Below, piece by piece: positions 3,311 through 46,900 of a DNA stretch of 64,000 nucleotides. Below the pieces are notes generated by a model, which saw nothing but the letters and a program-made list of their open reading frames with translations, had not been told where the DNA came from and searched no databases. Position numbers and translations under genes: made by a program. Origin of the DNA: Nematopogon swammerdamellus (Eukaryota > Arthropoda > Insecta > Lepidoptera > Adelidae); NCBI GenBank assembly GCA_946902875.1, contig OX336342.1:10471523-10535522 (forward strand). The letters run 5' to 3'. Every line of letters starts with the position of its first letter. The first letter of the stretch is position 1.

Positions 3311-3670
3311 GTCAGCCTCGGTAGCTCAGTGGTGCGGTCGGATGACTGTTGTTAAGCAACCCTGAGCGCCGTCAGATTGGTGACCGCTCGACCGTTGGAG
3401 GCTGATCGTGGTTCGGATTCCACGTAAAACTGTAGGTCCCTTCCCTTCTTACCTTACTAGGCGGTAGGGTTTATCTCGCCCGGGTTAGTACCACCGCACT
3501 GAATGAAACGTCGGTCGAAACGGCTATGTAAATACTTCGTGTTTTCCGCCCAGTTCAGTGTAGCCGACATGAAATGAAGGGAAGCACTGACATGGACCTA
3601 GTTCACCCGGGCTGACATCACGGATGTTGTAGGTGATGTAGCCAACCGTGTCAGTTTCAATAAAAAAAAC
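3311..3670 (+). mobile_element. tRNA-derived SINE, family A, full length
   Basis: Begins with a tRNA-like head: CCTCGGTAGCTCAGTGGTGC is an A-box region and GTGGTTCGGATTCCACG a B-box region. The body follows (GGTAGGGTTTATCTCGCCCG, GTACCACCGCACTGAATGAA), then a tail GTAGCCAACCGTGTCAGTTT and an A-run. This is the RNA polymerase III SINE layout. It is one of about ten copies in the window and the most complete plus-strand one. Confidence 0.85.
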
Positions 3671-4343: not shown

Positions 4344-4727
4344 TTTTTTTTTTTTTATGGAACCTGACACGGTTGGCTACATCACCTACAACATCCGTGA
4401 TGTCAGCCCATAACACGGGGTGAACTAGGTGCCATGTCAGTGCTTCCCTTCATTTCATGTCGGCTACACTAAACTGGACGGAAAACACGAACTATTTACA
4501 TAGCCGTTTCGACCGACGTTTCGTTCAGTGCGGTGGTACCAATCCGGCCGGGATAAACCCTACCACCTAGTAAGGTAAGAAGGGAAGGGACCTACAGTTT
4601 AACGTGGAATCCGAACCACGGTCAGCCTCCAACGGTCGAGCGGTCACCCATCCAATCACTGACCGCGCTCAGCGTTGCTTAATAACAGTTGACTAACCAA
4701 CCGCTCCACTGAGCTACCGAGGCTGAC
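4344..4727 (-). mobile_element. tRNA-derived SINE, family A, full length, reverse orientation
   Basis: Starts with the T-run (tail) and GGAACCTGACACGGTTGGCT and ends with the head ACTGAGCTACCGAGGCTGAC, the reverse complement of the A-box region. With the copy at 3,311-3,670 it forms an inverted pair about 700 bp apart that could fold back in a transcript. Confidence 0.85.
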
Positions 4728-6226: not shown

Positions 6227-9200
6227 GTGAGTATTGCACCATAAATCAGTAACTTTTTAGTTTCCCACTTACCGCACATACATTTAGATGTGAGCGCGCA
6301 CACAGCGATAATGGTTAGTAATTGGCACAACCCTTCGAGCACGAGTCCTCGGTTCAACCTATGCTATTGATTCTGTCGATAACTACTCGTAAATGTAAAC
6401 AGATTCTAATGTACTTCCGTGTGCTTTATAAGTTCAGCGCGAATACAAAATGTTATTACACAGTCTACCGGGCAATCTCTAAATTAAAAGTTAATTCTAA
6501 ATATAGACAAAGGTTTTGGACCCAACTGGACAATTTCGCCTCACTTTTTTACCGAAAAAATGACATTAAAGTGTTTTTTTATTCTAATTATAACGGCCTA
6601 ATTAGCCTGTAATTAAATAGACAACCAATCAGAACTCGCGTCAATTAAAAGTTAAAACGTGCCAAAAAACATAGACAATTTAGAGATTTGAGAAAGAACA
6701 GAAAGACAATTTGTGTAACTATCCACGTGGCAGTCGGTTCGAAATTTCGAGGTTCATTAAAAAAAATCATTCCTATTTCATTTATAAATGTTACTTGTCA
6801 ATCAATTAGCGTCAAACTTTGCTCATTTTTCTAAGCCGAACATTTTATAAATACTTTGCGAAATAATTTGGTCATACACTTTCCATAATAAATAACAGTC
6901 AATATAACTACGTCCTAAAATTAATTAAAGTTGGAAACAACAGAAACAAAAGCTCTTCAAAACGTTACATCGTTCAGTTAATTTTTCGTTGTTCATTAGA
7001 TGAGCAATCCAAAGTTATGTCGAATAGCCAATAAAATTAGAATAGAAGCCACACACTAGCGATTTATGTGGAAATTTATATAAAGTGAGTGAAGTGGATA
7101 CGGTATTAAAGATTTAAAACGCAAACACCTATAACCAAAATATTAGACGTTTAATTTGAATTTCACATAATTTTATAAATACACAAGTATAAATGAGCGG
7201 AACTATTATAGTCTTCACAGAAACAACAAATTGTAGTTGAACAAAAAATATGCAAAATTGACTAACCTAACCTAACCTAATATAAAATATAGGTATTTAG
7301 TCTTTCCATATCGCTACTGCTGCACTAGACATTATTTTATAGTTTTTTACGACCAGAGGCGAAAATTTGCAGCAAATTGCAGCAAAGTCGTAATAATAAA
7401 ATAAAATGAAACCACCTTGGTACGCTCACAGAGCCAATAAAGCTTCTCTAAGGACACATAGCAGGTGCAACTAGACGACGACGACGCACAGAATTAACTA
7501 CATCTTAACGGCAATGATGTAAACCGCAAATAACATTAACTTTTGTAGAGCAGAAAGATAAACCAGACTTAGAGACGAATCCGGAGCAAACTGCATTGCA
7601 ATGTTGAGGTGATGTGAGGCTAGCGCAGATTGAACTGTAAGAGTTAATTAGAGTTCGACCAAAAATACGGCTAGTCTTCTTCTTCAGCAGCGTATGCTAG
7701 TTCACTGCAATTTGCAAACTGTTTTTCGGGAGTACGGCGATGGTATCTCCCGGTGAAGTCCTTTGTCGGTCGGTGAAGGTCGCCATTCTTCCTACATTTC
7801 GTTTTCCTGTCCACGAACGCTAGTGTAGTTTTTTCCAACTCTCGTTATTAAAGGCGAAACATTTCATAGTACTTTTCTGCATAGGCATCAGTATTTTGCT
7901 CTAGTTATAAAAGCCAAGGCGCACAGTTTATGGGTTGGCCTTGGAAACGAGCTCAGCAATAAATTGATAATAAAGATGTCCAACACCTGAAGATACAATA
8001 TCAACTGCGGCTTCGCTCGCACAAGCTCGTAAGCTTTCATCGTACCAACATATTTTTTACAACTCTTCATAAAATCTTCTGCATGATAGCAACTAAATAT
8101 ACCTAAGTATACTCTTACTTGTTGCGTTTTCATAGCTACGATGCTGCTTCCAGGTATGTTAGCAATGACATCCAAAGAGCTTTTATGTATGACATCTGCA
8201 TAATTTGTGATGTTTGAAAACGTAATTTGATTCCACCCACATATTACTGATATATAATATAACAACACCATTTATAACGGTGCGCCTCCTGAAAGACTTC
8301 CTGGCTCCTTTAGCTCCTTTCAGCAGACTTCGGCTCGAAGGAAAGTGTGTTATGATTATGAGTGATGTTTTGGTGGTTTAAAAAAATAACCAGGGTTAAT
8401 ATAAAGCGACGCATCTTCTCTATATTAACCCTAACCTAATGGCGGTGCATGTCATTTTTGTTACGTTTGGTTTCGAGCCGAGTGTTCACAAAAGGAGCCA
8501 AAGGAGCCAGGAAGGAGCCGAAATGTCTTTCAGGTGTCGAACGCCATTTATAACGCCCATTTATAAGTACACTAGCTGTGCTCGCGGCTCCGCCCGCTCT
8601 CATATTTGACTTCTCTGCTAACCTCATAAGCAATTTAGCGTGATAGTAAGTAGCCTATAGTTGATGGGAAGAATCAAGCTATCCGTAGATTTTTTTTATT
8701 AAAATCGGTTCAGTGGTTCTCGAGTTATAAGCGGACAGACAGACATACATACAGACAGAAAGCAGACGTTGGATTTTATTAAAGGTAAGGATAATCGGTG
8801 GCTTCGCGGCGGTGATAGTTCATTCCCCGCCATTTTCGCATTTGATTTTGACAGCTTGCCACGAGTGGTTTATTTTTAGGGTCCCGTCGGCTGACACAGA
8901 GGTGACGGCGCGGCGCCGGCGGCGCACAGTGGCGCGTAAATCGATTTTAGTGGACATTAGGTACTGATGAAACTAACTTTGGTTTTTCGCTGTTTTGATG
9001 ATGCAGTTTTATTGTTCTCGACATTTTAAGGTCTTTTTATTCTTGCGTGATTTTCAAATAGACGAGTATTTTGGGAGATATTTCGCAACATTTATTTAAA
9101 TGTATGGGGAAATATATAAAAGTGCCGATAAATCGAAAAGCACAAGCGATCACAATATAATATTATAGGATCGTAATAAAGTCTATGTATGTGATATTTT

Positions 9201-12200
9201 GGCTATGACCTTCAACCTCGCAAATGCTCGTAACTTTAGAAAAAAAAATATTTTATGTAAATATAATATGGATTTATTTTTATTTACAGTAAATTACAAA
9301 TCCCAATAAATTATTGATATATTTATATGCCAGAGAGAATAAATTAGAGAGAGCTTATGTATAAATTGGTAGTAATAAGTTAACGAAACCTAAGAAATAA
9401 AATATAACTAAGTTTAATATTTAGAAAAAAAAATCAAATATGAAATAAATCACAAATCTAAGACATTATTGATATATTTTTATATCAAATACTGCTTATA
9501 CTCCCTTACATTTGAATACTCTCAACACCTTCATGCAATATATGCAATTGCTAATTTATTAAATAAATACTAGTATGGCTGAATGAATACGAGAATTTTA
9601 AAAATGTTTTTAATGGAATCGCCCCAGATCACCGCGAATTCCACGTAGCTCCCTCCTCGTGTCTTATGGACTTAGATAAAAAGAAAATGGATGGTTCAGT
9701 GTTTTTCTTAGTGGAGCTTCCGTTTGCAACGTCCAATATGATATGACAGGACTGAATCTTACTTTTGTGCAAAAACGCTTGACGCTTGACCTGTCGAAAA
9801 TGACAGTTAATCTCGTAAAGTGTAATTGGTGCGCTTGTTTCGTGAAAATAGAAATCTTCACGAAGCAGAGCCGACGACTAATGTATGTACAGTAGTTTAA
9901 AAAAGGATCAGCTGTTGTTTACAACCTGTATAAACATATATACATATAGATAGCCAGTAAAAACGTAACAATTTATATTTCATCTACATCAACAAACTCA
10001 ATATTTTCCTTATCATAATTTGAGATTAACAAACTCTTTACTTCGTCTGAATGGGGTTTCTTGTTTTTTTCTAATTTAGGTCTTATTGTGGATAACCAAG
10101 GATCGGAAGTTAATAGAAGTCTATTGCAAGTATCTTGGTTCGTAGCTGTTCTTGAGAATTTTCGTGTGTGACTTCGACGATACTCCCTAAAGTCTTTGTT
10201 TCGGGCTTCTGATGCCTCTTCTGATAGATGTCTTGCTTTATTGTCAGTCTTGCTTTATTGATTGCAACTTGAAAGTTGATGGCAATACATCAAAGCCTTC
10301 TTCTTTCAATATTTTCCTCCAAGAATTGTATTGCCATCTAGACATATTGGTAGAGAGCATGCCACCAAGAGCTTTTTCGGGACAGAGTTGACGTTTTTCT
10401 TCCTTATTCTCAGTTAATGCTTTGAACCGTGGTACGTCGTCAGGATTCTTCAATAGGTACTCTATTATGTGTACCACGTCTTGGTTACCATTAGCTTTTA
10501 GTCTCATTGACGTAGCGAAAGCCAATTCAGGGGAAGTGTACTGTTCTCTTATCTGCTCAGTCCTCCTTTTCTTTTGTTTTGGGCATATTTCACTGAAAGG
10601 TTTTCTCGGAGTTTGAGTTGAAGTGCCAAGCGAAGTTTTGTTAGTAGACGCTAAATCAGTCGACTCCATCTCATCGTAGCTTACTTCTTCGGCATTTGTT
10701 GCAGTAGTGTCACGCGAAGTACTTGGCAAATCAATCGACTGCGACTCTTTGATATTTTGTGCTTGAAGAGCATTCATCATACAATCGGGCCACTGTATCG
10801 GTGTTTCTAACCATGCACTATAGCTCTTAAAGAACTGATCTACTTTTGAACCAACATTCATCCATCTTCTATGTAGAGTAAAACAAAATTGTCTGCAGAA
10901 AGCACGAAGAGCGGAGAGAATGTCACTTGTGAAGTCAACGGGAAGTTTGGACACAATGATATTATATAACAGTTCTTGGTTTTGTTGTCTTTTAGGATCA
11001 CATATAGATCCAAATTTGTACAGAGACCTTCCATAATTAAGACGATTATACAATAACTAGAGATTTATTTGGTACAAAAAATCCTCAAATGGCTTAGTCT
11101 TCAGCAAAAATATACACCGCGATCGATTACGTCAATGCAAGATCTTTTATGGCAATTTTGATTTGTAAATAAAACAAATCATCACCTTACAAAAACTGGT
11201 AGGTGGATCAGATCCGTACACATGACCTGCCGCACAGCCAGAGTCCCACGAAATCTCACGTTCCAAGAGAATAGCTGTAACTGGCCTTGGTCCAATGTAT
11301 ATCGGGCCACGGCGACTTTAGCGTGGTCCACGCTTCGCCGGGAGGTTAATCTTCAAAAATTTGGCTCGAGTAAGAACCAGAGTACCTCAAAGCAATTATG
11401 TTTGTAAAACAAAATCACTAAGAAGCACTTACTGTCAATATATATCGTTTCAATATGTAGTCATGTTAGTTGAACTACACCATTACCGAGTAATGTCACA
11501 CCTAACGCCATCTCGTGGCGGCCATAATCAAAACTAAGCTGGAAATATTACTTTGCCTTTAACTATTGCGTAAACAATAGTTTTTCCAGAGAACTATTAA
11601 GCTTTAAACACGTTAAATTTCAGATACATAATACACTATTAAACGAGCACGTAAATATTTATGTTTTGAGATCTCGAAAACGGTTTTAACGATTTCTATG
11701 AAATTTGAAATTTTCGATGATATATGGGCCTTTTGAGGGCGAAAAATTGATCTAGGTAGGTCTCATCTATGGGAAAATGCGTTTTTTCCTAGTTTTCACA
11801 TACCCAGTGAAGCTCGGTTACCCAAAATAACGATTAGAAATATTAAATAACAACATAAAGATTAGTGGGTAGATAGAGGTCTCTGGCAGAGAGATAAGTA
11901 AGCTCAAATGAACTGAAATGAAATGAATGCTCAATGAAATTAATGAGTCAGTCCTGGTTGGAATAGAAATAGATACACTTTGCATCCCTACCTGGCATAT
12001 AAGTATATAAATAATTACTTAAGATTTGTGATTTACTTCAAATTTCATGTTTTATAAATATTTTTCTAAATATTAAATATATTTATATTTTATTTTTTAA
12101 GTTGCGTTAACTTATTAATACCAATTTATACATAAGCTCTCTCTAAATTATTCTTTCTGGCATATAAATATATCAATAATTTATTAGGATTTGTAATTTA

Positions 12201-15200
12201 ATGAAAATAAAAATAAATCCATATTATATTTACATAAAATATTTTTTTGTCTAAAGTTACGAGCATTTGCGAGGTTGAAGGTCACAGCCAAAATATCACA
12301 TATGTAGACTTTATTACGATCCTATAATATTATATTGTGATCGCTTGTGCTTTTCGATTTATCGGCACTTTTATATATTTTCCCATACATTTAAATAAAT
12401 ATTGCGAAATATCTCCCAAAATACTCGTCTATTTGAAAATCACGCAAGAATAAAAAGACCTTAAAATGTCGAGAACAATAAAACTGCATCATCAAAATAT
12501 CGAATGTCCACTAAAATCGATTTACGCGCCACTGTGCGGCGTATCGCGTGCGTTGGGACGGCTTTGCGAGGTCTCCGCGCGAGATCGCTCCGTGTTATAG
12601 GTCGCGTCGCGAAAGTTCGCCGCGACTGTGAAAAGACATGTGTGAGGTTTCGACATAGACGCCTTCGGCAGCGGAACCCTCGATCTATATCTGAGTTCAA
12701 AGATACTCTGGTGTGAGACTCCACGGCGGACAAATATCTAGCAATCGAAAAAAAAATCCATGATATTTGAACCAAAGTGCAGCTGTATTTTTAATTATAA
12801 AAAACCTAACACACTTGGCTCAACACCCGTTACACCCATAATTTGAGTCTATTACTTGTCGGAACTAGGTGCCGTGTCATGTATCTCACCTGGGTGAGTG
12901 TCGGCTTTGTTTGGGCGCTCCACCCCAGCGAGCGACTTGTTCGAAAATTTTTATTTATTGAAAGCGCGTCTTAAGTTATCTAACGACGCCCATTGACATT
13001 TGGTCGTATGCGGGGGTTGCGAATGCCATGCCGGCCTGAAAGGTGCCCATTCACGTCCCTCTTGAAGGACACGCAGCTGTACTTGGGGGGAAATATATGG
13101 GCAGCAAGAGCGTTCCAGAGTTTATCGCTTCTGTAAAGGAAAGATCTACAGAACGGATTGGTACGCATAAGTCACCGCGGTAAGTCAATCCCTGCCCAGT
13201 GCGCGTGGTGCGGAGGTGGAAAGGGGACGGCGGTATCGCGTTAAACTGCTCCTCCGAAATATTGAATTTTTATTTATTTCATTACTACCGTTGGTGGAAT
13301 GTCGAATCATGTATATAATTATGTTAGTCTGCCTATTTGTTAAGGTTTTGAGGTACCTACATATAATTTATTTATGTTGGGTAGTTAGAAATTTATGATC
13401 GTCTAGAAATTACGTATTCGTAGTCCTCCCCGAAACCGCCTTTTCATTATAAAGTATTAAGTACTGGTACATAAACAATATTGCGTGCAGGGGACCAAGT
13501 TCATAAGGTTACGCTTACCTAAATTATCTTAAAATCTGTTAGGTCGTGAGCCGCAATATCGTAACATTTCAAAATTTGTGAAACAAATTTTCCCTCAGGA
13601 AAACACTTAATGAAATATGAGCAGTCGGATAATTTGAGTTATTACGCCTCTAACACAACACATACGTGAACTTGAAAGTTCTCAATGAAAACTTGAAATG
13701 AGAATTTTAGACATTATTTTTCATCAAAACACAAGGTACTTGTACTTTTGGGCAAAATTTTCTTACTGGAAAAGACCGTTAGGCATCTTTATTTTTCTCG
13801 TGAATTTCATCAAGGTTATCTATTATTTTATTTTAATTAATTTATTCATTAGAATTCAAACTTATACAAGGTCAACGCTCCATAGAAATCATATTTAGCG
13901 ACAATTTGGTCGAAATAGAAATATCAAATTCTAAATGTAACTTTTAATCCGAAAATTTACAAATTCCCAAAGGGCATATTGAGTTGTGGTCGATAATCAC
14001 TTTGAGAAAGCCGAGAATGGCCAAATGCTCGCAGGAGGATCCATTATTTGTTCAAAGAATTGAATTATGAATATCTCATGACTGAACATTGACGGATTAA
14101 TCCATTTCTTTGATATCTACCTAAGAGCGAACATCCTGGGTTATTATTCAATTCATACTGAACCCGTGCAATTTAAAAAAATCTGCGCTATAAACCATTA
14201 TGTGTAATCATTCAAATTTACAAATGTATCATTCTTCAACAATCGAAAAAAAAAATCCATGACCTTTGACAACCAAAGTGCAGCTATATCTTTATAAAAA
14301 TATAATATATAAGTCAAATGATAACAAACTACACTAAAAAGTTGCAAATTGCAATTCATTAACAAAAAAACAAAATGATGGTACTTGTGTTAAAAACAAG
14401 TTGCATAATATGCACGATCATAATAAAATCAAACCTACTAACTTTTAAAGTTAGGGTCAAAACGATAGCTTGGCCGTGACCCACGACCACGCTGAGTAAG
14501 CTAAGAGGCTCTGCCGTCCTTCGTTGTAATGGACTACGTGCCCGTTGTCCCCTCGGCAGACTTCTCTCTCGCTAAGTTTGCGCCGCGGCTGGCGCTGACA
14601 ATAAAGTAACTGAGCGGTCTGTACTTATAAACTTGTAAAATGTTATTAGATGAGCATTTTATGTTATGGCCACGGAATTTCATACTGTGAAGCAATTTGT
14701 TATTTTATACTTATTAAAAGGTTTCATAATTTCTTAGCGATAAAAATAGCTTATTTAATTTTTTAAATCTGAGGTGAATATGCACTTGAATATGTCTACC
14801 TCTACTGCCAATAGTGGCAAATATCGAATAAAATCTAGCTGCTTGTTAAAACTTCATCATTGTTTTCTTGTTCAAATGAGAACAACTGACACTGAAACGG
14901 GTGCCGAAGAACCGGAGAGAAAATTTTAAAATTGTAACGTTTTCTTGTGAGCGAGTGTATCAGATTGTCTCTTCAGAAATAATGCGATTACGTATGTACA
15001 ACCTTTGAAAAAAAAAGCCGCCAAGTGCGAGTCAAACTCGCTCACCGAGGGTCACCTACAACCACAAAATATATTTGTGTTCTGTTTACCAAAATAATTG
15101 TGGTTTCGAAAATAACGAAACGCCTAAATAACAATTACAGAAATGATTTGACTGTCAGGCAAACCATTGCTTCTAGTATTTAAAATATACATTGTCGCAC

Positions 15201-18200: not shown

Positions 18201-21200
18201 AGTCATTTCACCTTCCCTCGCGAAAACCACGTTAGTGAGATACCAGCAAACTTCTGGATTATTGAAGTCCGGCCTGTTGATACGATGCTTGAAGACTCCC
18301 AGGTTGATGGAGTGTTGTATGTTATCACATACAACACAGGTTAAGAGCAACCTGTTGTTCACCTAATAGAACGCACTTAGCCAACCCGGAATAATAGAAA
18401 GGAAGAGTGAAGTACGCCACATACAATTACTCCTTATTGTATATAAGGTCTTTCAAAATTAGTTAATAGTACGCTAAGGGGGGGTTCTGTATCATATAGT
18501 TAGGAAAACCTATATAATTTTTTTTGGACCTGGTGCTTTTTTTAAGTAAAATATTTTTTTAAATGTTTAAATAAAAAAATAGGTGGTTGATTTTTATAGC
18601 CTAATCGATTCAGTTTCATAACAGTAACAAAAAATTATTCATTACCATTATGACGTAACACGTGTAAGTTGGTAAAAAAAATCAAATTCTTTCTATTCCA
18701 TACTAAGTGGGAAGACATTTTTGTTCCTGGCATGAAACTTAAACAATTAAGAAATAATTTTTTTTTGTAAAAAAAATTCTTTGTTATTCAAAAGTGATCT
18801 ACATATTTCCGATACAGAAAACCCCCTTAGCGTACTATCAACTAATTTTGAAAGACCTTATATAATGAGAAGGTTTGCTTGCACGTGTGTGCAGTTGGAG
18901 GAGGTGGAGGAGCTGCTGGGGCTGCGCGAGAGTCGCACTCCGGTGCGCCTGCGCTTCGGTCGCCGCTCCGCCGAGCGCGTCGTGCCGCACGTCTTCCCTC
19001 AGGAGGTGAGACTTCACTCAGCACGGCTGAAGCTACATTTTGTTAGGTTACAGGCGAGAGTAGCAGCGGCCGACTGTCATGTCCATGTCATGTCATGTCA
19101 TGACTCATGATGACGCGCGGGCGGTCCTATACGTTTTCTATCAGCACATTTGGTCGGACGCGGATGGCCAATGCTGATTTATAGATAAGCCATAGCACAG
19201 GCTCAACAGCTCCTGCTATCGAGTACAACCATGGACGAAAAAACGAGCTTTCGCGTGTAGCTCGAAGAGTGCGACACACCAAAGTATACCAATTTGAATG
19301 TTCTTGTTTTATTTTGTACGTCGAAAATTCTGCTAATTCCTATTCTTTTTTTTTATGGAAACTGACACGGTTGGCTACATCACCTACAACATCCGTGATT
19401 TCAGCCCATAACACCGAGTGAACTTGGTGCAACATCAGTGCTTCCCTTCGGTCGTGCCAGCTACACTGAACTGGACGGAAAACACAAACTATTTACATAG
19501 CCGTTTCACCGACCTTTCATTCAGTGCGGGTTAAACCCCACCACCTAGTAATATACGAAGGGAGTCATATCCCTCAATCGCCTTTTATGAAATACACGGG
19601 GAGAGATGCAGTGGGGCTATTCTTTTAAAGTACCGGCTCCACACGGTACAATGCGGTATTCAATGCGAAGAAAAACTGACTAACATCACAAGTGTCTTGT
19701 CATACATAGTAAAGTGAGTATTATAGTCACTTACAAATAATTAACCCATACTACCGCTAACAAGAACATTATTATTAACAGCATAAACGTGAATACTTAA
19801 TAATCTGACGACTCTGCCTATTTACATTACCTATGTACATCTGGTGCCATCGTCAATTTTGTTACTTAAGTATCAATATTTATCGAGTAAACAACAATGA
19901 TTAATTACCTACATTTATTACAAGGAAATGTAGATTACAAATCTAAAGACATAAAGTGTATCCAATTATCAAAGTTAGGGGGGGGGGGGGGGGGGGGCAG
20001 TCTTAGATAAAATTATGGTCAGCTAGCGCATCCTTTTAATAGTGTAGATAATAACTCTTTTAGTTAGTTTAACTTGTTGTTTAAAATTATTCTCGTAAAT
20101 TTTTTTTATGTCTAATGACAGGTTATTATATTAAGGTTAACACGATTGCAAATAAAGCTTTTTGAAGTTTTATATTATCGATGACTTACTAATTGTACAT
20201 TATTATTTATTACGTATAGCTTTTGTGCGCGGCTTCGCTCGCGTGAAATTCGTTTTAAAAAGAAGAAAGGAAGTAAGCCCGCTACCGTACCTTTATTTTG
20301 GCGCGCGGAACAAATCGGTTTGTAGCCAGAGCCACATCTTAGCGAAACCGGAACTGAATTCTATCCTGTGTCCCGTATAGGTAAATGTGCTTGTACTAAG
20401 TTTCATCAAATTCAGATGACCGGTTTAAGAGTTATGGAGGAACATACATACATACAGAAAAGATTTCTAAAAATCGTCAATTTAGTTTTAGTATCATACC
20501 TACTTAAAGTCCACAAGTAACTTACTCTATGACCATTCCTTACAGATTTATTATTAGTATGGATATGATGATGATTGATTGATCATAGTTATGATTATCG
20601 GAATGTAGATAAATGATGAATATATTTTCTGGCATAGCATAATTATGTTATGTCGTTGTACCTATGTAGTCTAATATTGTTGTTTATGTCACCTGCTAGA
20701 TTGGCGATGTTAATTACACCCTGACAAAGAAAAACTGCCGAAAATATAAAACACTTAGGTACTCAATCTCTAGGGAGAACTTTTATTACCATAACAATAC
20801 CAAACATGATGACTATGATAATGATGGCTCCCACTTAAAATGATGAAATGTAAACGGGCAATATTATGTTCCGCAGCAAGATCAGGAGCGCGACGCGCGC
20901 GCACCTTCCATGCGTCTGCGCTTCGGTCGCCGCTCCGACAACAACATGTTCGTGCTACCCTTCGAGGTTGGTGTCCGGGTGTCCGTCTTTATTCTTTATC
21001 TTCTACCTTTAACTGTTTTTCATTTTCCTATAAACTGTCATGTATAAATTCCAAGTTATCCCAACTTACAAACTTGGAATTTCCAAGTTTCATCAGCAGT
21101 TTTCGAATTAGTAGCACTTACAAACCAAACTTAGAATGAGTAAGTTCCAGAAACGTAAATCGAACCCAGAACACTCGCTTTGTATCCGGCGTATGCTTTG

Positions 21201-34100: not shown

Positions 34101-37100
34101 AGGTGAGGAATACGTGGTGGGTTTAGTTTTTTTTTACGTGATGCATAAACAAACACACAACCAGACTTCGACTTGATGCTATCTATTTATATTGTATGTA
34201 AGTGTGCGTGAGTTATTGTTAGTCAGTCAGTGTCAGCGAGGTGCCACGTCACTGCTTCCGTTTGGTTGTGCTGGCTACATTGAACTGGACAAAAAACACG
34301 AATTATTTGTATAGTCATTTCGTTCGATCGACCTTCGTTCTGTGCCGTTGTGCCGATCTGGATGGGTTAAGTCTACCACCTACTCATTCACGTAGTAAGT
34401 AAGGTAAGGGGAGTGACCTAACAGTTTCAAGTTAAATCCGTCGGACGTCCACACATCCAATATCTGACCATACGTAGAAAAATACACGACAGCAAAGCGG
34501 CGGCGGCGGCGGTGGCGGGACGCTCGCCACGTGAATATGGTTCACACTTGAGTGGTTTTTTATCTTCGGATTTGACTGGCGGAAACTGAAAAGCAGAGGC
34601 GAATTTCACTCTCGCATCGGGTACGTGCTGAAGGGCGGAGGGGCGGGGGCGAGGGATTTTCCCGCTCGTAATACGTTTCGTACTCTTCGGATTGTGTCGT
34701 GACAATAGATAAGGGGAATAAGACAGAAGTGTCTTAAAAATGTGTACTAAAATTTGTCCGTAAAATGTTTACTGAACAAGGCAGGAAAAGCACTTAATGT
34801 TAGACGCTTTATGCACATACCGCACAGAGTTCACGAATGCGTATATTAAAACGCATTCGTGAACTCTGTTGAGTTTGAACTGAGTGTACATTTTAGTGAA
34901 AACCTAAGCACTTTGCTTAATTTTTATTCACACAATTTTTTTAACTAGGATTATCCACACATAATTATTCTATACACGCAACTACAATACAATATATATT
35001 TAATAGGGATTGAATTATAATTCTAAGTACAGTTGCTTTCACGAGTCTTGAGCACAGATGGACAGTGGACTAACATTGCACGCAAGTGTATAGTAGTCGA
35101 ACGACGCGTGTGAGCCCAATAGGCGACGAGCGTCGACTGACGCTGACTGACGAACCAATCGCGTGAAGCGTCGTCGGCGCCGTCGACGTCGCATTCCATC
35201 AAACCGACCAATGAAAAGTGTGCTCATGACTCGTGAAAGCAACTGTAAGCTAAAATGAATAAAATAAAACACACGTGACTGGTTTAAAAGACTTAAAACA
35301 TTAAAATTAAAACGAGCACTAATAAAAACAACAAACAAACAAAAGAGATTAATAGGTACATAATTACCAGTAAGAGAAGTCAGCTATAATAAAAAAAGAA
35401 AGGCTAACCAAAAACGAAACCTAAATAATATTAAAAGTAGACAAATTTTTTTAATGAGAAAACTAACATAACAACAAATTAACAGAAATTAAACAAATCT
35501 ATCTCGCCTTAATTAGTTTTGTAATAATGTTCGTTTATTTACTTAAAGACGATGAGTGAAAGTGTAATACATTTCCATTTTAAAGCAGAGATCCCTTCAC
35601 CAATAGGAATAGTGTCGATGATCTTCAAATCGGCTCACCTGATCTTCATCAAACATAATTAAGAACCATCCCAGTTAAACCAGCTTACTAATTAATAAAA
35701 ATAAAAAAAACGCATCCAAATCGGTCTATCCGTTTTGGAGCTACGATGCCACAGACAGACAAACAGACTCACAGACTGACGGACGACGCGTCAAACTTAT
35801 AACACCCCTCCTTTTGCGTTGGGGTACGTCAATAAATGAAGCAAGAAGTTTAATTAGTTAAATATTCAAGGATATAATTCCCTTGAAAAGAATGTAAGTT
35901 GTAAATAAGTAAGAGTAAACGTCGATATTTCAAGATTATATTTTGTAACAGTTGAGACAGTTGTATCAATTAGATTTCTCGTCCTACTAAATTTCCATAT
36001 TCACTTGATAAGCATTAACTTGTCTTGCTTTGCTGCCAGGTATGAGAGATACTGAATTACAGATTGAATTATCAGAGAAAAGCAAAATAATGTTAGGTAG
36101 GAAAGTATTAGTAGGTACTCGGTTCTTAGGTTTTTTTTTAATTGGTGACTTTCGTGTTATTGTATGCAATAACCCTGCAGTATCTCTCTCGCACCGCACA
36201 ATACACTTCTCGGTGCTGTTAGCCCTGTGAGGAGCGCCGCGCCGCCGCGCCGCCGCCGACGGCGCCGTTGGGCGCCGCCGCCGCGCCGCGCCGCACAGTG
36301 GGGCGATACCGTAAAAAATGGGACATAGGATAATTAAATTTTTTTATTTTTATTTCTGAAATTTAAGTACGCTAAATTAATCTACCCATCATTATAAATA
36401 ACATTCATAGATTCATATTTTCTCATTTAAGCCTTATTTTTCGAGATATACCACTTTTTATTAATTTGTACTATGGAAATTGGGTAACTTTATTTTTTTT
36501 CTCGAAATGCTTAAAATAGCTAGACCCGTGGTTACTAAATAATGATTCCCCAAGTTAAAAAGATTATTACTGTGTAAAAACCGTATCCGACGACGTCCGA
36601 CTTTTCCGTATAATGCCATTTTAATATTATAATAACATTTATTCCTGCAAAGCTCACCTTTATTCTTTTTTTTTTTTTATTGAAACTGACACGGTTGGCT
36701 ACATCACCTACAACGTCCGTGATGTCAGCCCATAGCACCGGGTGAACTAGGTGCCATGTCAGTGCTTCCCCCTTTGATCGTGCCGGCTACACTGAACTGG
36801 TCGGAGAACACAAACTATTTACATAGCCGTTTCGACCGACGTTTCATTCAGTGCGGTGGTACCAACCCGGGCGGGTTAAACCCTACCACCAAGTAAGATT
36901 AGGAGGGAAGGGACCTACAGTTTTACGAGGAATCCGCTCGAATTACGAGGAATTCACTATATTCGTAACTTTCAGCTATATTCAAATAACAAATATTGTT
37001 TATTTGCATTGGATGTATATATTTGTATTTTAATGGTAAATATATTTCTCCATATCACCTATATATTTGAACTTGATGAAAATGTTTAATTTTTTTTTTA

Positions 37101-40100
37101 TTGAAAGCGCGATGGCGCTGAGGCACCCAGAAGGTGACAAACGACGCCCATCTAATTAACTTTGTACTTTTAGTTTCATTGGTCTATTTTGATAATAATC
37201 TACGGAGCCTCTATTATCGGCTGCTATACTTACTTATAATATCTCTTATAAATGCTTACCATTATATTAGGAATATTTTCAACTTCGCGAGGATTAGCGG
37301 ATTAGGGATATTTATGTGAATTGTCACGTATTTCCATGAAAGCTCTCGAAGAAACAATTACACTGCATTGCTAATTGTTATCTACTTAACAAGGATTAAC
37401 GATATACCAGGAATACTGCAAACTGTGCGAACTAATTAGCAGTATTCATTAGTGAACAACACAATCAATCTGGCACTCAGTCTGCTCCAGTCGTTTGCAC
37501 GAGTCAGTCTTCCTACCCGTGCTTTACATATTTAAAACTATTCAATACGAAAACATGGAGTCTTTTGTTAATAACATTGATATTTACGTGTTTATGAGAA
37601 ATTGTGACAGTTTTCTGAATTACGCGGTATTGGTTGCCGCTATTGCCTCAATAGTTAGTGTAAATTTGCCCGAAGAGACACAAGTGAAAGAATTTTGTCG
37701 TAAATATTGTTACAATCTACACAAACGATGGGTGAAGTCAAGCTACAACGAGGAACGTTTTCTACAGAAGAATCGAGAATGGTTGGACTCGGCCATCAAG
37801 TGGCCCGAATTCGTAAAGAAACAACTGCCTTCAGCGAGTAGCGACCTCGCGGATAACCAAAAGGTTTGCACTTCTCAAATAATTTCTCCGGGACCATCGA
37901 CAGCGCCTCCTATCTTTGTAGCATCTTCACATAAATCATCGCCGAGAAAACCATTTGAAAGTTTAGGAGCCAAACAAAAGCGAAGAAGAACCGAAGACAT
38001 TCGCACAAACTATACATCGCAGGAACTAGCATTTGCGACCAAAATGCGTTTGAAGGCAAATGGGAACGAGGACCTGGGGAAAGTTTTGGACCATTTGCTT
38101 CAGAATCCAGGCGAAATCGAAAAAGTCAAAGAATTCATTGAAAAAAAGGAGTCCAAGACTGTTTATTCATCTGAAAAAGCACTTGCGATTTTGGTGTCTT
38201 TAAAGCAATCAAGATGGCAATATATAACTTTAAGAGACATGGCTAAGGAAGAAGGTTCCGACCTCTATCCATCTTATTATAAAATTCAACATGCGAAAAT
38301 TGAGTGTTACCCCCCAAAACAGGACATTGAAGTTACCGAAACACAGGCCAAAATTAAACTGCAAGCGCTTTTGGACCATACTGCAAAAAGAATTTTGAAA
38401 GTGGCGAACCGAAACCTCACAGGTTGCCAGCTAACATTAACAAGCAAGTGGGGATTCGATGGCGCTTCTGGCCAAAGTACATATAAACAAAGATTTCAAG
38501 AACTGAACGAAGGAGACGACTCAAGCATTTTCATGGCAAGTTTGGTTCCTATAAAACTGGTTTATGGAGACGAAGTGATCTGGGAAAATGAGACGCCATC
38601 TTCGACGAACTACTGCCGTCCTATCTTCTTCAAATTTATGAAGGAGACAATCGATAACGTGAAAAGTGAAATGGCTACCATAGAATCCGAAATACGAGAT
38701 CTCAAAACCAGCGATTACGAAGGCGTTTTGATTGAGCATTCGTTAATTATGACGATGATCGATGGTAAAATTACGTCGATTATCTCCGGTACCTCTAATC
38801 AGTCATGTGATATTTGCAGAGCTAAACCGTCTGAGATGAATAACGTTAATATAATTAAAAGTAAAGAAGTAAACACAAATATGTACCGGTTCGGACTATC
38901 TACGTTGCATGCCTGGATTCGATGCATGGAATGCCTTCTCCATATTGCATACCGCATGGATTTTCAGCAGTGGTCGGCCAAAGGTAATAATAAAGAAATT
39001 ATGACCGAGAAAAAAAAACAAATTCAAGATAATTTCAGGAAAGAAACTGGTTTATTGATCGACGTGGTAAAACAAGGTTCAGGAACCACGAACGATGGCA
39101 ACACTGCAAGGCGCTTTTTCCAGAATCCCGAGCAAACTGCCTCTATTACCGGTCTCGATAAGGATTTAATTAATAGATTCGCGGTGATCCTTAAGGCCAT
39201 CTCCTCGGGAGAAAAATTTTGCACTCAAAACTTTGAAATCTATGCTCAAGAAACAATTCAACTTTATATATCATTGTATAGCTGGTATCATATGCCAGCA
39301 AGTGTTCATAAACTTTTATTCCATGGATCTGAAATAATAAAGCATTTTAACGTAATTCCAATTGGCATACTCTCCGAAGAGGCATCAGAAGCAAGAAATA
39401 AAGATTTCAAGAAGTACAGGGAACACTACTCTCGAAAATGCGATCGCAAATCGACTAATCAAGACATTCTCAACAACTTGCTCGTATCGTCGGATCCATA
39501 TTTGTCTAGTATGAAGCCAAAACTTCAAAAACAAAAGCAGCCCTTATCCAGTGAAGTGCGACATTTGCTAATTATAGACGATAAAAATAAGGAAAATATT
39601 GAATTTATTGATACCAGTATTATCTGTGTTCAATCGGATGTGGAGGATGATGATGATTCTGACGCTGAAGACGCTTTAGGTTGTTCCAGTGATGAAAATG
39701 AAAATTTGTAGAAATATTGAGTAAATAAATTGTAATAAAAATAGGAAGCTTTATGTACTTTAAAAATATTTATTTAAAAGTTATTAAGTATGTTTTATTT
39801 TAAGGTTTTTGTAAGATTGAAATAAGATTTTTTCTCAGAAATATGAAGTTTGAATTTCTTTTTGTTATGCACGATAAACATACTTCAGAAAATTACTTTT
39901 ATTCTTGACCATAATTTTTATTGATGATTGGTATTTTTACATTAAATAGGCTCCGTTAAAAGCCATGGGTATTTGGGTAATAATGTATTATTACTTTGAA
40001 AACTTTTATTATTACTTTTAATAATGTATTATTACTTTTCTCATCATTAATCACTATTCTTAATGTTGATGTTATTAATTTTATACTTTGAAGTAGGTTT

Positions 40101-43100
40101 ATAATATACTTTGACGGGGGCAATTTTTTGCCTAATTATAATAAATTATAGTAAGTTTGATATATCGAAGTGTGCAGAGCCACCAAAATGACGAAATGAA
40201 AATACACAACGATATATATAACTTATAATAAGTTAATAATTCGGTAAGTTCCGTAAATACAAAAATATATGTAGTTAGTTAAATATGTAGTAATTTATAT
40301 ATGTTTAATTTAATTACTATCGCCAGATTAATTTGTAATATTTTATGCAAATATGCGCCGTCTGATTGATTGTATTTTGTGTGTAATAAACGTACCATTC
40401 CACTATAATAATTTTATTCAGATTAGACTACTCAACTTGAAGAATCATTATTAAGTAACCACAGGTCTAGTTATTTTAAGCATTTCAATAAAAAAAGTTA
40501 CTAAATCTCCATTATACAAACTATTGAAAAGGATTATAACACCTTAACAGAAAATCTCTGAGAACAAAAGGTTTTTCTAAATGCTGGTAAAATGTATTCA
40601 TATATTCAGTTTTCCACATATCTCAATTTTTTTTACTAAAGAATTTTCAATGTGATATATCTAAAAAATAACAATTGAAACCGAAAATATGGAAGAGTAA
40701 TACTAGTTACAAGAAAATGTTTTTTTTTAAAGTTCAAATTGCTATATCTCAGAAAATAAGACTTAAAATGGAAAATTTCTAAGAATAAAAGTAGTTTGTA
40801 ATCATTAAGAGAATATATTAACATACTCACTTTTTACTATATTATAAATGTTTTTATAAGTGCTTATATCTCGGAAAATAATTTTTTTATCAAAAAATCT
40901 CACAGAATGAAAGTTGTTCGTAATTAATAGTAGAATCTATTTGCGTAGTCATTTCGCCCTATGTCCCGGTTTTTGCGGTATCGCCCCACTGTGCGCCGGC
41001 GGCGGCACTAGCGCTCCCACTCGTTGATTGCGGAAGTGTGATCGCATTCCGTATTCACTTTTAGAACTCACACCCTATCTACAATCCGTCCGTGCCTAGA
41101 GATAATTCGTATCAGGAATGTACTTTTTATTTATTATGTAGTACGTATATAAAGTTTAAATGAAATTAAATTAAAATATAGTTCACTAGGTGGGCCCGCG
41201 GCTTCGCTCGCGGTAAAGTCGATATAATAGCAAATCGGATTTGAACCTATTATTGCTGCCAATAATACTCAATCCCTGTAATATGTAATGGAGTGATGTT
41301 AAACAAATGTAAAAATACCAAAACAACACAGATCATAATTTATTTATTTATTAAATTAGGATTAATACAAAGACAGGAATATATTTAAGCATAAATTTGT
41401 TCACATGTGATTTATGACCTGCCTCCGCCACATAATCCGCCAGCCTCGGTAGCTCAGTGGTGCGGTCGGGAGCGCGGTCATTTCTTGGACGCATGATCGA
41501 TCGATTGTTGGAGGCTGACCGTGGTTCGGATTCCACGTAACACTGTACGTATACCTTCCCTTCTTACCTTACTAGGTTAGGTAGTAGGGTTTAACCCGCC
41601 CGGGTTGGTACCACCGGACTGAATGAAAAGTCGGCCGAAACGACAGGTTCGAATCCTAGTCGGGACGTATTTTTTCTCTTCATTTTCGGCTTTGCATTTA
41701 TCTATAGAAAAATATAAAAAGCGAGTACATGCTTAGTACTAACATATAAAAAAATAAAAAAATATAATATTAAAAATCCCAAGTCCTAGAATATATTATT
41801 AAAAGTCCCAAGAAACTAAGAACGATGTCGAAGACCGAAATACGTTAAGTCAAACAATAAACCTTCTCGAAGAAATTAAGTGACTAAGAGCGAGTCCAAA
41901 GGCCGAGCTTCGTTCACGTAAATGATTTTATATTATATCGAAGAAAGCAAGTCATTAAGGGCAGTCCCGAAGACGGAAAAGGGTTTATTGTATACCTGAA
42001 CGCAGCTCGGCCTTCGGCCTCGCACTTAGTTACTTCCTTTCTTCGAGATGGTTTATTGTCTTCCTAAACGCAGCTCGGCTTCGGCGCGGGCGAAGCGGCT
42101 TCGGCCTCGCCCATAGTTACTGACATTCTTTGAGGACGTTTATCGTCTTACAGAATACAGCTCGGCCTTCGGCCTCGCCCTATTTACTTACTTTCTTCAA
42201 GAAGGTTTATCTTCTTCCTGAACGCAGCTCGGCTTTAGGCCTCGCCGTTAGTTATTTAATTTCATCGAGAAAGTGACACCAAGTTCACCCGGTGTTATGG
42301 GCTGACATCACGGATGTTGTAGGTTATGTAGCCAACCGTGTCAGTTTCTATAAAAAAAAAGGTTTATTGTCTTCCAGGATGCAGCTGGGCCTTCGGCCTC
42401 ACCGTTTGTTACTTACTTTATTTGAGAACGTTTATCGTTTACCTGAACGCAGCTCGGCCTTCGGCCTCACCCTTAGTTAGCTACTTTCTTTGAGAAGGTT
42501 TATCGTTTACCTGGACTCAGCTCGGCCTTCGGCCTCACCCGTAGTTACCTACATTCTTCGTTGAAATAAGAATTTCACGCGAGCGAAGTCGCGGGCAACA
42601 GCTAGTCTCTCAATAAAATTACCGCGTATCCTTATGCGTTAAAAAAAATCAACGCACGTGGTAATAAATAAGAAACGAAATAAATATTTTGTTTACAAAA
42701 TGTCGAATATTTGACCCCGGTTTCACAAAACAACCTAAAGGGACTCAATAAATAGATAAAACAGTTTATGCGGAGAACATTTCGCTTTCGAATATCATCG
42801 AGTAGAATCTGAAAAGTCTTCATGAGATCATTTGATCGCATAACGTAATGAGCTCAGCGACTCATCGCCTTGCCACTTCGCTAATATTTCATCTCGTAAT
42901 TCTAAAGTTTATAGAATTACATTATGTGTAATATGAAAACATCCCGGATAACATTTTATGATAATATGTATGTAAATAAAAACTTCAGTCGTGGTTATAA
43001 AATAATATAGGCTATGAATAACGTACTTGATATAATAAAAATATTTCATAAAAAGAAGTGAGCGTTGCAGATAAGTTTTCCTCTTTCACGCGGAGTCGCA

Positions 43101-43977: not shown

Positions 43978-46900
43978 TGTATTTATGTATGTATAGGAAA
44001 ATAAGGATTTGACCAAGAGTGAATCTGCCGCGGGCATGATATTGTGAGGCGGGTCGGGGCGGCGGCGGCGCACTGTGGTCAGCTTTGATGATCTGATCGA
44101 GCGAAAGTATTTTATGCTTGCAACATTTCATAAATTACTACTGAAAGTGAGGAAATATCAACTGAACCTTGAAAAATATTATTTTCTGTCTTGAAATTGT
44201 TTTTCATTTTTCATAGAAAATTTTCACAATTTTTTTTTATAATGCACTGGTATTTTACATCAAAGTCATTATAATCACTGTTTTCACACACATAGTCCAA
44301 AGCTGATTGATATTATTCTCTGGAAGTGGTTCATTTGACCATACGTCGAATAAAATCCGCCGAGTAATACCATTCGCCAACGCTGAAAAGAAAAATTATA
44401 ACTACTCAGGACGCAGGTTGACGCAGCTGAATGTAGCATAAATATAATCCTTAATACATGTTTGACGTTATAAAGTCACAATCATTAGCAATCCGTAGCA
44501 ATCCCATACTTTTCCAGCCTAATAAATGTAATGCAAATTTATAAAATTATCAATTATCGATACACAGATTTCATAAAATTTTTTTTGTATGCAAATGAAA
44601 ACTTTGTTAATGTTTATATGCTAAAAATTAAAGATACTTACCCATATTTACGACATCCACGAAGAAATCCGAGACATAAACCCCGCTACGTCAACTTTGA
44701 AGCAGTTAATATGTTCAACTAACAGCGCGGTAATTTTGTGCGCCCCAACAGACATTAAAACATATTGTGACAAGCACTCGCGACGAGTCAAGTGTTCGAC
44801 TATGACTGGATTTATTTATTGTGGTGTACTGCCGTGTTAATAGGGCATCTTTGTCAATGCTTAGTGATTAAATAGGAAAAAGTTGGATTTTGAGGTTTCG
44901 CTCGTTCAGATCGACAAAGCTAACGTACGTGCGGAGGCGGGGCGGTGTGGCGCGGTCGCTCGCTTGTTCGGCGTGTTCACAATAATTTGCCGCTTTGAGA
45001 ATGCAACAAGAAAACTCGGACTGCCTCCGTTAACAAACCGGATTCACATACAGCTAGCTTCAATATTTATTGGTCTAACATTCAAGAGGGCTTAAAAGTA
45101 GGGATAAAACATTTAGATAAACTACTAGAGAACATACGTAAGTAATTTCCCATTTGTTTTTATTTTGAACATTGCGAAGTAACTCTTGATATGCATGGTT
45201 TTGCAATTGTTCGCATATCTATTGCAATATATTAGTTAGATCCTACTTTCATCTTCACATTAAAAAAACCTGAAAATATAAAAACATAATTATCCATTGG
45301 ATAAAAACATCCAAAACATGGCCATTCCGCGGAGGAACAGTCCTTGGGACAAATATCTTTACTTCCGGAAGATCATCCGGTGATGACTTATTCGCCTCAC
45401 GACATAAAGTCATCCACACCCGATCCAAACTTCAAATTGGGCTAGGTTTCCCATTGGCAGCAGAGGGCATCACTATTCAAGAGGCAGGAGCTACTCTTGA
45501 AAAGGCGTTCTTGTACGTTACATACTCAGAAAGTATGACGAAGTAGAAGTTCCGGCTACATTGAACTGGATGGAAAACACGAACAATTTTCATAGCCAGT
45601 TTCCACCAACATTCATTCATTTCATTGAGTGCGGTTGTACCAGCCCGGACGGGTTAAGCCCTACTAAGCTGCATAATATGTATAGATCGTTCGTTCTAAC
45701 CTGAGGCGTACAAATAAATTCACGCATGACGGTGAGCATACAATTCTGCGAGTGTAGTAGTGCTTAGGCCATGTATAGGTGCATGTCAAACATTTGTATT
45801 AGAGAAATGCATTTGTGTGCGTACGTGCGTTCGCCTCAGGTTAGGCCGTCCATGCTATACATAGTAAGGTAACGGGAGGGAGCTAACTTTTTCACGTGGA
45901 ATTTGAACACCCATCCAAAGTCTGACCGCGCCCTCGTTGAAAATGTAAAGATGAGGCAAAGCAGCGGTGACGGGACCCTCGGCTCGTGAATGTGGCTCAC
46001 CTTTTACCGGTATTTTATATACTATTTTAGCCTTAATTATTTCTTTGTAAATAAATCATTTCAACCACGAAAGCATATTTTACTTCAACAAAACATCACA
46101 TTTCCCGAACTCCGTCTTCAAACACGCTGTACAAGCAGTCACCATCATGCGTACTACATTGAGCGCTGCATCACTGCGTACAGCTATACATAGTACCTTG
46201 GTACCTGCGGAATTCGCCTGGCACCCGACCGCGCACAAATAGAATGCCGTTGACCGATCAATTATCAACCGCATGACGTCGCATCAACACGGCGGCGACT
46301 TGTCCGCAGACCAAGCAACACTTTTCGAAGTGGGGCCAAGAATCATTTCCGTCACCGCTCCCTGCTTCCATTTGGAATTACTATGTGGTGTATGAAGGAT
46401 CTGCCCGGATTGATACCACCGCACTGAATGAAACGTCGGTTGAAACGGCTTTTTCAAGTAGTTCGTGTTTTCCGTCAAGATGAAGGGAAGCACTAACACT
46501 GGCACCTAGTTCACCCGGTGCTATGGGCTGACATCACGGATGTTGTAGGTGATGTAGACGACCGTGTCAGTTTCCATAAAAAAAAAACTACACGTGTTAT
46601 AAAAACATACCTACATGTTATGATGAAAATATTCCTGTGCATTAGGTATTTATTACTTTTGGAACATTATCATGAACATCCTTTGGTACTCCTATGTATA
46701 CAGGTGTTTCAGGATAGGGTTTCGTAACTTCAGGGTTCGAAAGGGGTCCATATTTGAAGACCAAAAGCTCTGAAACTTTTTCCCAGATTCGGGCATTTTA
46801 TAGTACTTTTTAGTGAAAATAGTTTCATCGAGCATTGGTGGACGGTTAACGTCCACCTTTATTAAATAAAAATAAAATAACTAACTTACATACTTAACTG

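Follow-up and report, generated by a model that had tools for sequence, protein, structure and literature searches.

RAG1, the protein that assembles antibody genes, is related to the enzyme encoded by Transib transposons. HzTransib of Helicoverpa zea is the only Transib transposase returned by a search of solved structures (PDB 6pqn, 6pqr, 6pqu, 6pqx, 6pqy and 6pr5; the element is described in PMC1852546). Published accounts report Transib ends in which symmetric spacers of 20-22 bp separate heptamer and nonamer-like blocks (PMC8355894, figure 2 legend), CGNCG insertion sites for a Transib of Trichoplusia ni (PMC4735498), a CCANTGG target for Drosophila hopper/transib2 (PMC3276498), the arrival of Drosophila Transib1 only in 2013-2016 (PMC12974806), and two Transib subgroups, I and II, distinguished by the type of C-terminal tail and by the alpha11-alpha12 region (PMC9435367). 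Here we describe a Transib element in a 64,000-nucleotide stretch of the genome of the lepidopteran Nematopogon swammerdamellus (GCA_946902875.1, contig OX336342.1, positions 10,471,523 to 10,535,522 of the forward strand; hereafter the window). An intact transposase recurs in at least 62 near-identical copies, very probably the outcome of very recent cut-and-paste spread by the element's own enzyme.

The element and its copies

The element occupies 4,700 bp, from 36,294 to 40,993 of the window, with boundaries read directly from the sequence. CACAGTGGGGCGATACCG opens its left end from 36294 and the inverse of CACAGTGGGGCGATACCG closes its right end at 40993; the terminal inverted repeats agree at 33 of 36 positions (91.7%), and with the target-site duplications counted in, the inverted arms are 41 nt long and 90% complementary. 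A sequence-only reading had placed a complete element at 36289..40998, with CGCCG on both sides, 36-bp inverted ends and a 718-codon open frame; direct reading bore this out to the base, the frame translates without a stop, and the catalytic and zinc residues (D302, D403, E612, C418, C421, H585, H590) all stand where that reading had named them. The features, with a second Transib of the window, are as follows.

36289..36293, no strand: left target-site duplication, CGCCG (direct reading and copy comparison)
36294..36329, plus strand: left terminal inverted repeat, 36 bp, with heptamer CACAGTG at 36294-36300 and GGACAT at 36321-36326
36454..36556, plus strand: subterminal inverted repeat, left arm (80.6% identity between the arms)
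36666..36936, no strand: nested interspersed repeat resembling a short interspersed element (SINE), complete in 41/41 compared copies
37477..37508, plus strand: two TCAGT words (37477, 37504) upstream of the start codon, predicted initiator only
37555..39711, plus strand: transposase gene, 718 codons, stop-free, intron not required
37933..38103, plus strand: transposase segment, candidate nonamer-binding-like domain (weak scores)
38458..38460, plus strand: codon of catalytic D302
38761..38763, plus strand: codon of catalytic D403
38806..38817, plus strand: codons of the C418-x2-C421 zinc pair
39307..39324, plus strand: codons of the H585-x4-H590 zinc pair
39388..39390, plus strand: codon of catalytic E612
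39724..39739, plus strand: two AATAAA words (39724, 39734) just 3' of the stop codon, predicted polyadenylation signals
40434..40531, minus strand: subterminal inverted repeat, right arm
40958..40993, minus strand: right terminal inverted repeat, 36 bp, with heptamer at 40987-40993 and GGACAT at 40961-40966 (minus); three differences from the left
40994..40998, no strand: right target-site duplication, CGCCG (direct reading and copy comparison)
8925-12536 (8920-12541 with duplications), gene on the minus strand: second, defective Transib, CGGCG on both sides

The transposase is a homologue of Transib transposases and of RAG1: its DDE (Asp-Asp-Glu) triad is in register with that of RAG1 and its zinc residues are in place. 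Among named homologues, the seven best all come from moths and butterflies. Together with the 5-bp GC-rich duplications and the CACAGTG ends, this supports the earlier assignment to Transib/RAG1; the element is a member of a known superfamily and is not categorically new in kind. The earlier suggestion that the family may be new gains support from a protein identity with HzTransib of 52% over the core, compared at the protein level; the usual threshold for a transposon family is about 80%. As judged from sequence, the element represents a new family within the Transib superfamily, separate from that of HzTransib. We recognised no published description of this family among titles and abstract openings, with subscription literature mostly outside that survey, and we make no claim that it is unpublished.

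We searched the 699 Mb genome (39 contigs) with the window transposase. Sixty-two of 2,647 first-look candidates were scored, and all 62 are 99-100% identical across residues 1-718, 60 of them stop-free. In a second search the query was a homologue that is 52% identical; 64 of 2,658 candidates were scored, and their identity to this query is 53-55% throughout. Of the 64, 54 were places already found, and the 10 new ones, five with one stop, equal the family in score against this homologue. The combined searches give at least 72 transposase copies, 65 of the 72 without a stop.

A 35-bp end pattern found 238 exact matches in the genome (119 forward, 119 reverse) against none in the reversed control, so that other copies with matching ends, which the sequence-only reading had proposed as a check, are plentiful. 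Of the 100 end matches listed, 54 are left ends and the other 46 are right ends, each of which has a left-end partner at 4,651-5,174 bp. Five further left ends pair at 4,671-4,865 bp with a variant right end in which GCAAAAACA replaces GCAAAAACC; of the last three left ends, two (C1, C4) have a transposase at the expected 1,262 bp and the third lies on C2. From end-pattern and pair counts we estimate about 120 copies in the genome. Among the 51 length-resolved copies from the matches listed there are no internally deleted derivatives, and the shortest pair spans 4.65 kb. The GCAAAAACA right end recurs at 11 places as a sub-lineage of the family, and the altered base is therefore probably dispensable for transposition. 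The end pattern also gave 29 matches on viral contigs, none confirmed as a relative.

Recency of spread and rival explanations

We compared the window copy with 40 of the 61 others scored, 41 copies in total. Every one of them spans the element with the same layout, one (L017) carrying an insertion and another (L032) running to nt 4698, with two bases apparently lost from its right terminus. Exact 5-bp duplications flank 37 of the 41, and where CGNCG stands on both flanks the 5 bp are identical in 33 of 34; CGCCG at the window locus alone is weak evidence because the left flank there is rich in CGCCG, and the claim stands on the other copies. Among the 41, the left end is invariant and the right end has two variants. 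Private substitutions number 62 over 41 copies of about 4,650 bp, or about 3.3 in 10,000, and the alignment holds 31 shared variants, including those of an eight-copy group. The moth mutation rate is near 3e-9 per site and generation; the copies of this score-selected sample would have an age of the order of 1e5 generations or less.

One copy (L040) sits in a CGGCG-bearing stretch of an abundant host repeat. A first look gave 1,685 relatives of this repeat, and the 40 scored cover the joined site end to end at 95%. The site is uninterrupted in all 12 relatives fetched (L049-L060), which equal the joined flanks exactly over 78 nt with a single copy of the 5 bp; it is a short CGG run, within which the exact insertion base cannot be fixed. 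Empty sites had been suggested as a check on the view that the element is active or was so recently. Recent mobility is supported by near-identical copies, duplications and an uninterrupted paralogous site, and the family may still be able to jump.

Several observations weigh against this picture. Because the compared set was taken from the 62 copies that best matched the protein, its openness and identity are biased upwards. Seven of the 72 transposase copies carry an in-frame stop, that is, some are already dead, and four of the 41 compared copies (L018, L019, L032, L033) lack an exact in-register duplication. Of the private changes, 17 are nonsynonymous (on 1713 sites) and 7 synonymous (on 441 sites); their ratio is about 0.6 times the neutral one and, with so few events, not clearly below it. 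We considered purifying selection since insertion, but these changes are too few to conclude. Pfam RAG1 was not matched by the 718-residue transposase, whose one Pfam match, PriX at E 0.13, is a chance hit; the same model was matched by all four homologues tested, two of them below the curated cut-off. The case for mobility is drawn from the genome sequence.

The stops, the 17:7 count and the reliance on sequence for the activity of the family would also suit a recent Transib burst that is now over, with copies silenced or the enzyme dead and intactness a mark of youth. Against such an end to the burst stand the 65 stop-free frames of 72 and source copies that were necessarily active very recently; we regard it as a serious alternative whose chances fall somewhat short of even. 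It is very improbable that the copies were made by segmental or assembly duplication of a single locus and not by transposition. One further copy (L036) does lie, also at CGGCG, in a diverged relative of the host repeat of L040, so that two copies share a kind of site; however, their flanks agree at only 72%, against about 99% for the elements themselves, and all 12 fetched relatives of the L040 site are empty. The other compared flanks are unrelated save for scattered repeats, which refutes locus duplication for the 41 compared copies, and the match ends at the element termini, where 37 of 41 have a 5-bp duplication.

Two alternatives concern the affiliation of the element. A RAGL transposon of the ProtoRAG type, with a past or present RAG2-like partner, would be expected to carry a RAG1L/RAG2L gene pair; a scan of unspliced frames found no open reading frame above 72 aa inside the element besides the transposase, and no RAG2-like partner. 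The layout is the same in all compared copies and HzTransib is by far the nearer in sequence; we give this alternative scant credence. Least credible of all is membership of P element or hAT, which are likewise hairpin-forming DDE superfamilies, with RAG1-like features gained by convergence, since the comparisons run point away from P and hAT.

End signals and target site

In the recent cut-and-paste spread that we favour, the elements carried an end signature of CACAGTG followed, after 20 bp, by GGACAT. The second Transib of the window has inverted ends of 444 nt (95%) and a transposase remnant matching residues 10-248 and 606-690 only, and so lacks the catalytic core. Its ends differ from those of the main element, yet retain CACAGTGG, GCG at nt 10-12 and GGACAT at nt 28-33, so that GGACAT is the inner block common to both. 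Genome-wide, once one position was set so as to exclude the main family, CACAGTG-20 bp-GGACAT has 176 matches, two of them the second Transib's own ends (one match was written out in letters), and the reversed control has 6; with a spacing of 21 bp the counts are 20 and 7. A two-block end of fixed spacing is therefore common in this genome. The arrangement is not new in kind, because the figure 2 legend of PMC8355894 describes it. Some of the 20-bp matches form pairs, either facing inward at a distance of 541 bp or placed back to back at 14 bp (for example C10:6791383-6791923 and C6:9051405-9051484); the facing pair is possibly a short non-autonomous Transib of another family.

A recombination signal sequence (RSS) consists of a heptamer and the nonamer ACAAAAACC, spaced by 12 or 23 bp. 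The ends of the element are not of this 12/23 type. The best nonamer match, 8/9 letters, is in the right end only, which reads CACAGTG-10 bp-GCAAAAACC; the left end reaches 5/9, and shuffled spacers reach 8/9 in 0.6% of 20,000 trials. We rejected GCAAAAACC as an RSS nonamer on its spacing of 10 and on the 5/9 of both the left end and the second Transib, and it is also contradicted by the 11 copies that spread with GCAAAAACA in its place.

The 37 exact duplications are CGCCG (17), CGGCG (14), GGGCG (2), and CGTCG, GAGCG, CGATG and CGACG (1 each), and 31 of them conform to the GC-rich target CGSCG. With the first duplication base as position 0 and the 99 CGSCG sites of the window as background, these 31 insertions have C at -1 in 61% (background 31%), G at +5 in 58% (23%) and C at +6 in 84% (48%). 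The target consensus is a palindrome, C[CGSCG]G, often inside CGN runs, and CGNCGSCGNCG occurs at 11 of 31 insertions against 17 of 99 background sites. GC content within 50 bp is 62% at insertions and 53% at CGNCG sites of the window (P 4e-5, with this single window as background). Given the CGNCG sites of the T. ni Transib and the CCANTGG target of hopper/transib2, this kind of target is already known.

The arms of the subterminal inverted repeat (about 103 bp) lie at unequal distances from the two ends; the repeat is perhaps a remnant of long inverted ends resembling those of the second Transib. Relatives of the nested SINE-like repeat with its T run, 81-90% alike, occur at 4344-4613, 3414-3669, 19343-19529 and 46403-46587; it is complete in every compared copy and was therefore probably a passenger of the founder element. 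The TCAGT words at 37477 and 37504 are predicted, and we take them to be a possible insect initiator. Rfam gave no match anywhere in the window at the gathering threshold.

Mechanism and comparison with known systems

To the observed ends, duplication, target and intact active site, a chemistry and present activity may be added by analogy with HzTransib and RAG1. A transposase dimer would synapse the two ends and nick the DNA at the heptamer, hairpins would form on the flanking DNA, and the freed ends would join the target 5 bp apart, within C[CGSCG]G. The transposase likely bears a nonamer-binding-like domain N-terminally, before the catalytic core: one segment is a candidate, with weak scores, for a counterpart of the RAG1 nonamer-binding domain (helical, ahead of the dimerisation domain, fold of RAG1 389-464). 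This putative domain may contact the inner end, perhaps at the GGACAT block. That the family is jumping today and that its ends are read in two parts in the style of RAG1, with the core on CACAGTG and the nonamer-binding-like domain on GGACAT 20 bp inward, is a rather doubtful proposal; if true, two-block recognition would be older than RAG2 and the 12/23 rule, and a system of one protein would serve to dissect it.

We suggest that this element is useful as a natural, intact and recently multiplied relative of RAG1, with near-invariant ends, a well-defined target and, likely, a nonamer-binding domain, whose role before vertebrate V(D)J recombination becomes testable with the full-length transposase. 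The roughly 120 copies form a natural insertion set for the study of target choice by a RAG-like enzyme.

HzTransib differs from the window transposase at about half of the core residues and has some 176 fewer N-terminal residues, an offset from which it would lack most of the nonamer-binding-like domain; the element is 3,518 bp long, against 4,700 bp here, and has "long TIRs" (terminal inverted repeats), against 36-bp ends here (PMC1852546). Jawed-vertebrate RAG1 and the RAG1L of ProtoRAG (3jbw, 6xnx, 6b40) share with the window transposase the catalytic triad, the zinc residues, the fold and, probably, the nonamer-binding domain, at 16-17% identity; unlike them, the window element has no RAG2-like partner, and its ends have no RSS nonamer at 12 or 23 bp. 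Drosophila Transib1 and hopper/Transib2 resemble this family in recent spread and 5-bp duplications (PMC12974806, PMC3276498). In the hopper/transib2 palindrome CCANTGG, as in C[CGSCG]G, a C precedes the 5 bp and a G follows them, with a core that contains AT in contrast to the CGSCG core here (PMC3276498). Two of three fully determined lethal insertions of Transib1 have internal deletions (PMC12974806), against 0 of 51 copies here; in view of this difference, copies may have been gained by jumping during replication and not by gap repair, and the lack of deletions may reveal how the element multiplies. The Transib of T. ni, likened to ours by target motif and counts, also inserts at CGNCG sites, and there a moth Transib has been caught in the act of transposing into baculovirus genomes (PMC4735498).
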